The notes beneath the pieces were generated by a model that saw only the letters and a list, made by a program, of their open reading frames with translations, was not told the origin of the DNA and made no database searches. A DNA stretch of 9,256 nucleotides from an archaeon. GTDB taxonomy: Archaea > EX4484-52 > WAPT01. Location of the stretch: assembly GCA_029258795.1 (NCBI GenBank), contig JAPDKB010000003.1, positions 1 to 9,256 on the forward strand. The letters run 5' to 3'. A program made the position numbers and the translations under genes. Shown piece by piece: positions 6,570 through 9,256 of the stretch (its first letter is position 1; the number at the start of each line of letters is the position of its first letter).

Positions 6570-6631
6570 CCCGCAGCCTGGTTAAAAGAACAGCATCCAA
6601 TTCCATCGGTTGCTTAAGACAGAGAGCCCTC

Positions 6632-8272
6632 TTACAGTCTTCTGGACCTTAAAAGGGTTATCAAAAGTCCAAATCCAGAAAGGCCGGCAAGTATAAATCC
6701 TATAATTCCAAAGGCCGGGAGATTGAATAAGAAAGGACCTCTGTTGGAAAGTACAATAAGAGAGGAACCTATTACTATGGAGGCCATTATGAGACTGAAT
6801 GAGAGTCTGTTAAGGGCTCTTTCTATCCTTGATGCAATGGCTTCAAGTCCTTTGTGCTCCATTTCCATTTTTAGTTTTCCTTCCTTTAGTTTTTCCAGTA
6901 TCTTACGCACATCTTCAGGGAATTTCTCAAGAAATTTTCCATAAGAGGAGACTATTTCTTCTGTTTTTCTCAACACAGCCTCTAAGTTATACCTTCTTTC
7001 AAGCAGTTTGAAAGCATAGACCTTAAGGCATTCTATGATTTCAAATTCAGGATAAACCTGATGAATCACTCCCTCAAGGGTGGATAAGGATTTTGCGAGG
7101 AGAACAAAATTTCTGGGCATTTTCATTTTGTATCTTCTCGTAATATCAAATATTTCATTTGCCACCCTTTTTATTGATATCCGGGAAAGGGGAATTCCAT
7201 AATATCTATCCATGAGGTCTTTAATTGCCTCTTTAATCTCCCCGATGTCTGTTTCTTTACCTATAACCCCAAGATTTAAAAATATTTCCACAGTTTTATT
7301 AACATCCTTTTCCACGATGGCTATGAGCAAAGCCGATAGAATATCTCTGGATGTTTCATCAATTCTTCCTATTAATCCAAAATCCAGGAGAATTATTCTG
7401 CCATCCGGGGAAAGCATGATATTTCCTGGATGGGGGTCAGCGTGGAAATATCCATAATCAAAAATCTGCGTAAAAAAGAAATCAGCAATTCTTCTTGCAA
7501 TTTCCTTTCTGGAGATTGATACTCTATCTATATCTTTTATGTTTATTCCTTCCACCCTTTCCATGGTTAGAACCCTGCCGGTGGTATATTCCCGGTAGAC
7601 GGAAGGTATAATCACATTTTCATCGTTTTTAAAATAGTTTTTAAATCTTTCAATGGATTTTCCTTCCTTTATAAAATCCAGTTCCTCAAGCAGATTTTTT
7701 CCTATTTCCTCTATCTTCCCCACCACGTCAAATTCTTTTACCACATTAAATCTTTTCTCAAGCATTTCGGCTATTCTCCGGATAATGGAAAAATCAGATT
7801 CAATCATATTTCTTGCCTTTGGTCTCTGCACCTTTACCACCACTTCAACACCCTCTTTTATCTTTGCCCTGTGGACCTGTGCCAGGGATGCGGTTGCATG
7901 GGGTTGCTTTTCAAACACCGGAAATATATCGGAGATTGACATCTTGAATTCTTTCTCTATTACATCTTTTATCTCCTCAAATGGAACGGGTTTCACCCTC
8001 TCCTGAAGTTTTGAAAGTTCCACTATAAAATCTTCCGGAAGGAGATCAGGACGGAGGGATAGAATCTGTCCTATCTTTATAAAAGTAGGACCCAGTTCCT
8101 CTATAGCCATTCTCAATCTCTCTGCCCTTGTCCCTTTAATTTCCTTCCCTTTATACCGTATTCTTACCGGGAGACGTTCAACTATATCCCTGAATCCATA
8201 TTTTGCAAAAACAAAAAGAATATAGTGAACCCTTTTAAGGTTCCTTATGCTTTTTACTATTCTTTTTAACAT
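6632..8272 (-). CDS. UbiB/AarF/COQ8 (ABC1) family atypical protein kinase-like ATPase
   Basis: This 546-residue protein has the hallmarks of the UbiB family. These are the KxGQ-type motif KIGQILSLRPDLLP (K66-Q69), the family-specific alanine-containing loop ATASLAQVH (126-134) that replaces the glycine-rich loop of kinases, the ATP lysine in VVVKVQ (K147), the catalytic loop HADPHPGNI (277-285) and the metal-binding DFG (297-299). Two hydrophobic helices near the C-terminus (about 493-513 and 520-541) anchor it to the inner membrane. Characterised relatives support ubiquinone or other isoprenoid-quinone synthesis through ATPase activity. The role in an organism with other quinones or none is unknown. 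It starts 7 nt after the upstream small gene with no good Shine-Dalgarno, so it is probably coupled to it. It converges on the patatin gene with a 62-bp gap. Confidence 0.93.
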   Translation of the reverse strand: MLKRIVKSIRNLKRVHYILFVFAKYGFRDIVERLPVRIRYKGKEIKGTRAERLRMAIEELGPTFIKIGQILSLRPDLLPEDFIVELSKLQERVKPVPFEEIKDVIEKEFKMSISDIFPVFEKQPHATASLAQVHRAKIKEGVEVVVKVQRPKARNMIESDFSIIRRIAEMLEKRFNVVKEFDVVGKIEEIGKNLLEELDFIKEGKSIERFKNYFKNDENVIIPSVYREYTTGRVLTMERVEGINIKDIDRVSISRKEIARRIADFFFTQIFDYGYFHADPHPGNIMLSPDGRIILLDFGLIGRIDETSRDILSALLIAIVEKDVNKTVEIFLNLGVIGKETDIGEIKEAIKDLMDRYYGIPLSRISIKRVANEIFDITRRYKMKMPRNFVLLAKSLSTLEGVIHQVYPEFEIIECLKVYAFKLLERRYNLEAVLRKTEEIVSSYGKFLEKFPEDVRKILEKLKEGKLKMEMEHKGLEAIASRIERALNRLSFSLIMASIVIGSSLIVLSNRGPFLFNLPAFGIIGFILAGLSGFGLLITLLRSRRL

Positions 8273-8279
8273 TTTTTAA

Positions 8280-8558
8280 CTACTTTATCTTCTTCTCAAG
8301 AGCGGATATTCTCTTTGATAGTTCCTCTATATCTGCCTTTGTGGCCAGGTTTAACCTTTCATGTATCTCCTCCACCTTTTTTTCCACAATTTTTTCTATT
8401 TCCTTTTTTGCTTCCTTACCTCTGGATATGAGATGTTCCTTTGTAATGTCTCCTTTTTTGAGAAGCCCCTCTAAGGTTTTGTCCGCTTTTTCCTTCAGAG
8501 AGATTAAAAGCCCCAAGGATGCAAGAAAGAGATCCTCTATTTTTTCCTTCTTTGCCAT
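8280..8558 (-). CDS. Small coiled-coil phasin-like protein
   Basis: A 92-residue, highly charged, helical protein. The N-terminal half (KIEDLFLASLGLLISLKEKA) forms an amphipathic segment and the C-terminal half (about 62-92, ending LSKRISALEKKIK) has a heptad pattern typical of a coiled coil. The overall form matches the phasin/PhaI-like small proteins known in bacteria from polyhydroxyalkanoate granules. Many members occur without any granule genes and their job is unknown. The start at 8558 has AAGGAGGT 5 nt upstream. It is followed after 7 nt by the UbiB-family gene on the same strand, which suggests one operon and perhaps a membrane-surface partner of that kinase-like protein. The phasin label is a resemblance, not proof. 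Confidence 0.75.
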   Translation of the reverse strand: MAKKEKIEDLFLASLGLLISLKEKADKTLEGLLKKGDITKEHLISRGKEAKKEIEKIVEKKVEEIHERLNLATKADIEELSKRISALEKKIK

Positions 8559-8563
8559 GTTTT

Positions 8564-8571
8564 ACCTCCTT
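8564..8571 (-). promoter_or_regulatory. Ribosome binding site of the phasin-like gene
   Basis: AAGGAGGT on the minus strand ends 5 nt before the ATG at 8558. A second, almost identical site (AAGGAGGTAAT, 8801-8811) lies about 235 nt upstream at the predicted transcript start, with no ATG at a matching distance. Confidence 0.8.
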
Positions 8572-8589
8572 CCATAAATTATGTTGTTA

Positions 8590-8813
8590 TGCCCCGGGAT
8601 GTGAGGGGCCTGACATGTCAGGGAATATTGCAGCAAGGATGGGTGAGCACCGGAAAGCGAGGCAACGAGAGACCCATTGCACATATGAGGCAGCCCGCCT
8701 CGCATAAAACCCTGAAACCCAGGAAGAACCATGCACTCCATATTCCCCGCAATTCACATGGTCCAGGAGACCTTCTTTACATACATCATCAGCAAAGATA
8801 ATTACCTCCTTAT
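8590..8813 (-). ncRNA. Candidate structured RNA or long regulatory leader
   Basis: This stretch lies between a sigma70-type promoter (8821-8849) and the phasin-like gene and is GC-rich: by hand count 66 of 110 bases in 8591-8700 are G or C, far above the neighbouring genes. The helices nest as follows. P1 is 8609-8618 with 8756-8767 (two bulges). P2 is 8621-8628 (GGGAATAT) with 8740-8747 (ATATTCCC). P3 is ATGGGT 8639-8644 with ACCCAT 8672-8677, extended by GCA/TGC. P4 is GAGGC 8687-8691 with GCCTC 8697-8701. P5 is CCTG 8711-8714 with CAGG 8720-8723. GCGAGGC (8657-8663) can also pair with GCCTCGC (8697-8703), giving a pseudoknot or a switch. A long rod with internal loops recalls 6S RNA, but I recognise no conserved family sequence. 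The strand comes from the promoter. No T-run follows, so it may read through into the phasin-like gene as a leader. Both ends are estimates. Confidence 0.42.
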
Positions 8814-8820
8814 TTTATAT

Positions 8821-8849
8821 AAGATACTAACACAGATTTAGTTTGTCAA
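8821..8849 (-). promoter_or_regulatory. Promoter of the leader RNA / phasin-like / UbiB operon
   Basis: On the minus strand: a perfect -35 TTGACA (8844-8849), a 17-bp spacer and the -10 TATCTT (8821-8826), followed by an AT-rich TATATAAAAT. The -35 context CTTGACAAACT is identical over 11 bp to that of the tRNA-tuf promoter, suggesting comparable strength. The predicted start near 8814 falls about 3 nt before an AAGGAGGT sequence. Confidence 0.7.
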
Positions 8850-8869
8850 GTGTGGGGTGGGTGTATAAT
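8843..8869 (+). promoter_or_regulatory. Candidate divergent promoter toward the transposase-like gene
   Basis: A perfect -10 TATAAT (8864-8869) is preceded, after a short 15-bp spacer, by TTGTCA (8843-8848). This -35 overlaps the -35 of the minus-strand promoter base for base, so both polymerases cannot bind at once. The short spacer makes it weaker than its partner. Confidence 0.45.
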
Positions 8870-8885
8870 AAAAATATCTGATAAA

Positions 8886-8930
8886 TATCCAGGGTTATCC
8901 AGGTTATGGGGCTGGTTATGGAAGAGGTTA
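8886..8930 (+). repeat. Short direct repeats upstream of the transposase-like gene
   Basis: TATCCAGG occurs at 8886-8893 and 8896-8903 (period 10). GGTTATGG occurs at 8902-8909 and 8914-8921 (period 12), with GGTTAA following. Closely spaced repeats of this kind are found in transposase-binding ends of insertion sequences and in operators. Which applies here is unknown, and no terminal inverted repeat can be tested because the other end is outside the window. Confidence 0.4.
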
Positions 8931-8965
8931 ACTCAAGGAGGTAGAGATGGGGAAGGTATCAGGAG

Positions 8966-8986
8966 GGAGGGGGAATTTCCCCCTCC
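8966..8986 (+). other. Strong hairpin just upstream of the transposase ribosome binding site
   Basis: GGAGGGGGAA (8966-8975) and TTCCCCCTCC (8977-8986) form a perfect 10-bp inverted repeat around a single central T. In RNA this would fold into a very stable GC-rich hairpin ending 5 nt before the AAGGAGGTG ribosome binding site. No T-run follows, so it is not an intrinsic terminator. A 5' hairpin that limits transposase translation from outside transcripts is known in some insertion sequences; its role here is inference. Confidence 0.55.
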
Positions 8987-9002
8987 AGGAGAAGGAGGTG
9001 CT

Positions 9003-9256
9003 ATGGACGTTTTAAGGGACATCATAGAAGAAAAGGACCTCAAGGTTACGAAAGTTAAAAAGACTGAGGAAGGATGCAAGCATTGCGGTTCATCCAGAGT
9101 GTGGCGTAATGGAAGGGATAAGGAGAGGAAGAAGGCAGGAAGGTTTATCTTGTTATAAGGAGGCAGAAGTATCTCTGTGGGGATTGTAAGCGCACTGTTA
9201 CTGTGATGATAAAGGAACTGCCTCCCTGGAAGAGGTTCACCCTCTCCCTTGCCCTC
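9003..9256 (+). pseudogene. Zinc-ribbon transposase-like gene, 5' part with a -1 frameshift (runs off the window)
   Basis: The start at 9003 follows AAGGAGGTG (8992-9000) and gives MDVLRDIIEEKDLKVTKVKK, then a first zinc-binding pair CKHCGSSRVWRNG (C25, C28). That frame ends at a TAA at 9156-9158. The -1 frame, open from 9122 to the window end, supplies the expected second pair in RRQKYLCGDCKRTV (cysteines encoded at 9176-9178 and 9185-9187) and continues KELPPWKRFTLSLAL. A CxxC...CxxC ribbon near the N-terminus is typical of several insertion-sequence transposases, where it helps bind the DNA ends. Both halves of one ribbon lie in different frames, so the gene is broken, read by a programmed shift, or contains a sequencing error. 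No classic slippery heptamer is visible in 9122-9158. The catalytic domain is outside the window, so the family cannot be named. Confidence 0.6.

Follow-up and report, generated by a model that had tools for sequence, protein, structure and literature searches.

A GC-rich, probably non-coding stretch upstream of a phasin-like/UbiB gene pair and its reading as a probable bacterial operon leader

The gene pair and the origin of its contig

The window, that is the whole stretch of 9,256 nucleotides analysed here, is an entire contig (1-9256). On its minus strand a GC-rich stretch, referred to below as the island, is followed by the gene of a phasin-like protein, which begins with ATG, and then by the gene of an ABC1/UbiB atypical kinase. 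The coordinates of the features are collected in Table 1.

Table 1. Positions of the island, its putative expression signals and the two downstream genes
Feature	Position	Strand	Basis
Sigma-70-type promoter	TTGACA 8849-8844, spacer 17, TATCTT 8826-8821	-	10/12 consensus matches
AAGGAGG, full Shine-Dalgarno (SD) sequence close to the predicted transcript 5' end	8805-8811	-	direct reading
Putative GC-rich non-coding leader; structure indistinguishable from shuffles	8590-8813	-	GC, folding, codon statistics
Possible 13-codon upstream ORF, TTG start, reads LLMMYVKKVSWTM, stop TGA	8754-8795	-	translation
Core, closable by GGGAATAT/ATATTCCC around three hairpins	8618-8752	not assigned	predicted fold
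AAGGAGG, SD of the phasin-like gene	8565-8571	-	direct reading
Phasin-like protein, 92 aa	8280-8558	-	Pfam PF05597, E 1.1e-7, above cut-off
ABC1/UbiB atypical kinase, 546 aa	6632-8272	-	Pfam PF03109, E 1e-78

The contig is very probably a misbinned bacterial fragment in an archaeal assembly. At its left end, on the minus strand, the tRNA genes Thr-Tyr-Gly-Thr are followed by the start of tuf, an order typical of bacteria, and the long variable arm of the tRNA-Tyr is a bacterial character. The GC content of the contig is 42%, versus 45-48% in six stretches of the other contigs of the assembly. The assembly is otherwise archaeal and is rated as 0% contaminated; the archaeal ribosomal protein L19e is encoded on another contig (C5), the control genomes possessing L19e were all archaea, and a relative from the same order encodes an aIF5A-like protein. 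Neither UbiB nor the island could be detected in the genomes of the same genus, which is explained by the misbinning.

Composition, coding potential and expression signals

The first-pass annotation had described a stretch markedly richer in GC than its surroundings, and this was confirmed. The 224 nt of the island have 51.3% GC, while the whole contig has 41.6% and the AT-rich edges have 29% (8559-8589) and 22% (8814-8849). The tRNA cluster left out, the island is the GC peak of the contig and 0.26% of the 224-nt windows are equally GC-rich. The core (135 nt) reaches 54.1%; the values of the neighbouring UbiB and phasin genes are 37.7% and 38.4%, respectively. The 62 nt that separate the UbiB gene from the convergent gene of a patatin-like protein (6570-6631), possibly a bidirectional terminator, also have 51.6% GC.

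The island is most likely non-coding. Its six frames scored between -0.18 and -0.74 bits per codon in a codon-usage measure trained on the contig's own genes, 31 tiles of which scored +0.21 ± 0.14 and never below -0.12, and no match was obtained for the island with Pfam and NCBIfam. Several frames are open over long runs, and a 79-codon run was equalled by 13% of the shuffles. A protein-coding gene in any frame, the outcome which had been named as speaking against an RNA, was rejected on a codon usage unlike that of the contig's genes.

The claim that the island has its own promoter is also borne out, as a near-consensus minus-strand element is predicted directly upstream (Table 1), and from its position the transcription would start at about 8814. 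With this promoter upstream and the strong SD of the phasin-like/UbiB pair at the other end, it is natural to read the stretch as a leader of about 255 nt. No ATG, GTG or TTG follows the 5'-proximal SD at the 4-6 nt spacing of the contig's genes, while a TTG 9 nt beyond it opens the 13-codon frame. On the plus strand at 8838-8870, inspection by eye showed a promoter-like element in divergent orientation, with TATAAT some 16 nt behind a TTGTCA-like hexamer; it overlaps the minus-strand promoter of the leader and has no entry in the program's promoter scan.

An open frame on the plus strand at 9003-9256 resembles the start of an IS transposase, with a CxxC zinc-ribbon pattern (CKHCGSS...; RRQKYLCGDCKRT after a frame change). 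It is apparently frameshifted and is cut by the contig end, and its fragments gave no match with Pfam. Upstream of this frame there is a strong palindrome, GGGAGGGGGAATTTCCCCCTCC, at 8964-8988, and no 135-nt window of the contig has a lower fold z-score than the one at 8920 around it (-2.9).

Folding and searches for relatives

The complementary segments on which the proposal of a structured RNA had been founded are present: the pair that can close the core lies at 8621-8628/8740-8747, GCGAGGC/GCCTCGC lies at 8657-8663/8697-8703, and ATGGGT/ACCCAT, CCTGACATGTCAGG and GAGGC/GCCTC were further found in the island. Their pairing and the helix counts were no better than in dinucleotide shuffles. 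The fold of the whole island had a z-score of 0.01 on the plus and -0.05 on the minus strand; helices of at least 4 bp numbered 9 on the plus strand versus 7.7 ± 1.4 in the shuffles, and 8 on the minus strand versus 9.8 ± 1.5. Thus the GC part of the argument holds, while the pairing equals that of the shuffles. The predicted fold of either strand is a multi-branch junction.

On the plus strand the core gave z-scores of -1.84 to -2.0 (4-5% of the shuffles were as low) and on the minus strand about -1.0 (9.5% as low); the best plus-strand sub-windows were at -2 to -2.9. The core and the sub-windows were chosen after inspection, and these z-scores are among many tested. Since 20 of the 246 strand-windows of 135 nt on the contig are below about -2.0, the value of the core is not exceptional. 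The tRNAs of this contig had fold z-scores of -4.6, -4.4, -3.0 and -1.4, and since one real tRNA reaches only -1.4, a single-sequence value near zero speaks against structure without disproving it. The operon SD was predicted to be paired with 8801-8794 with a probability of 0.94, but 23% of the shuffled leaders reach this value or a higher one, and SD sequestration was therefore rejected as the sign of a switch.

All Rfam families, 6S included, were compared with the island, and neither strand gave a match. Rfam 15 with permissive filters and E up to 10 found no relevant family on the island, and permissive thresholds on the whole window found no relevant match for it either. In the region 8550-8860 no family came near its gathering score, the best one, at 14.5 bits, being an unrelated human lncRNA, and none of the known riboswitch or leader classes of Rfam 15 matched above the gathering score. 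A 6S-like RNA, which had been suggested, is unsupported, as RF00013 had no match on the island (cmscan, E up to 10) and none in the assembly. The island is similar to 6S RNA in its size, near 200 nt, but the latter forms a single long hairpin that opens into a single-stranded bubble at its centre, in contrast with the several-hairpin junction predicted here.

The island DNA is present in one copy in its own assembly and in 0 of 61 relatives. When 7900-8860 was compared with 394 archaeal genomes, no homologue of the island was found; ten located matches fall in the UbiB/phasin coding parts, and a few near the AT-rich edge do not cover the island. Plasmids and phages contained no homologue by blastn, with one 27-nt chance match, and two exact 20-22-mers were absent from the viral contigs. 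Phasin and UbiB pattern scans of the genome and the viral contigs, with patterns that were poorly conserved, gave no relatives. A single-sequence covariance model of the plus-strand core, applied to 151 genomes, returned two marginal matches (E 0.04-0.06); one lay within a nitroreductase-like coding frame, the other spanned the beginning of an aminotransferase gene, and both were rejected as chance-like. The UbiB loci of the archaeal relatives have no phasin-like gene upstream and therefore no comparable leader. Since the contig is very probably bacterial and the genomes searched are archaeal, the absence of homologues is almost uninformative.

The probable operon leader and the alternative readings

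Taken together, the promoter, the SD and ATG at the far end, the non-coding codon scores, the folding z-scores around zero, the lack of RNA and protein family matches in the searches above, the chance-level pairing of the SD and the precedent of cry3A favour the island being the long and GC-rich 5' untranslated region of a bacterial operon of two genes on the minus strand, a reading to which we assign a probability of about one half. It is probably an ordinary leader, perhaps a regulatory one. RNA polymerase would start near 8814 from the promoter at 8849-8821, a ribosome could bind the 5'-terminal SD (8811-8805), and the leader of about 255 nt would end at the SD at 8571-8565, the translation of the operon beginning at 8558. 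The hairpins would be those which any GC-rich sequence of such make-up forms.

This SD may shield the transcript against 5' decay in a manner similar to STAB-SD, where a bound 30S subunit in the cry3A leader blocks 5'-3' decay (PMC4113751). The likeness lies in a complete SD that sits close to the predicted 5' terminus, well ahead of the true start, with no start codon at the usual distance; unlike there, the TTG at 9 nt could start a leader peptide here. Alternatively, the 5' SD may serve to start this 13-codon leader peptide.

Some observations count against a plain leader. There is no obvious reason for about 10 points more GC than in the adjacent genes, the plus-strand core folds somewhat better than the shuffles, and a normal folding energy is compatible with a structured RNA, as the contig tRNA at -1.4 illustrates. 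Long GC-rich intergenic stretches are the class where structured RNAs are sought (PMC8723152; PMC11109978), and the island is like the unclassified candidates of DIMPL and the 50-genome survey in these works in being long, GC-rich, intergenic, in an AT-leaning bacterium and directly upstream of an SD. Their assessment drew on homologues and covariation, while here there is one sequence.

A structured cis-regulatory RNA on the minus strand, riboswitch-like, protein-binding or a leader-peptide attenuator, is a tentative and rather unlikely alternative, in which the helix GGGAAUAU/AUAUUCCC would close a hairpin junction and mutually exclusive pairings (GCGAGGC with GCCUCGC, or local hairpins) would switch expression. 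Such a role would suit a GC island between promoter and SD, the two predicted minus-strand folds only 1.2 kcal/mol apart (-78.6 and -77.4), the predicted pairing of the gene's SD and the possible upstream ORF. However, the energy, the helix counts and the SD pairing do not differ from those of shuffles, Rfam gave no match, and the only terminator-like hairpin inside, with 6 pairs followed by a short T run (8724-8710), comes from a scan giving 4 sites versus 1.4 expected. We consider it quite unlikely that the plus strand encodes a separate small or otherwise structured RNA (about 8587-8780) running divergently from the operon. Only the plus-strand core surpasses most shuffles in folding, and the A-rich loops and positive AT skew (+0.30) of that strand would also fit, but the z-score of the core is one among many tested, the promoter match is weak (9/12) and lies inside the phasin start, and no terminator was called on the plus strand at the end of the RNA. 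It is very improbable that the island is what is left of a gene or mobile element, a coding sequence in decay beside the IS-like zinc-ribbon frame. The IS-like frame is adjacent, and a 75-codon minus-strand frame is open across the island, but the score of the latter (-0.18) is below the minimum in the tiles of the contig's genes, an open run as long is not unusual in shuffles, and the single-copy island has no relative in Pfam, NCBIfam or plasmid tblastn.

Whichever strand is considered, an undescribed structured RNA that is restricted to a bacterial lineage not yet sampled, be it a cis-regulatory leader of the phasin-like/UbiB operon or a small RNA of the plus strand, seems unlikely to us. 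Nothing observed demands a new RNA class, which is possible but lacks support.

A GC island with visible pairing is weak evidence for a structured RNA. In the case of a misbinned contig, homologue searches guided by its assembly go to the wrong domain of life. If the leader were a regulatory RNA, it would provide a handle on the control of the UbiB-type kinases, the regulation and substrates of which are poorly known.
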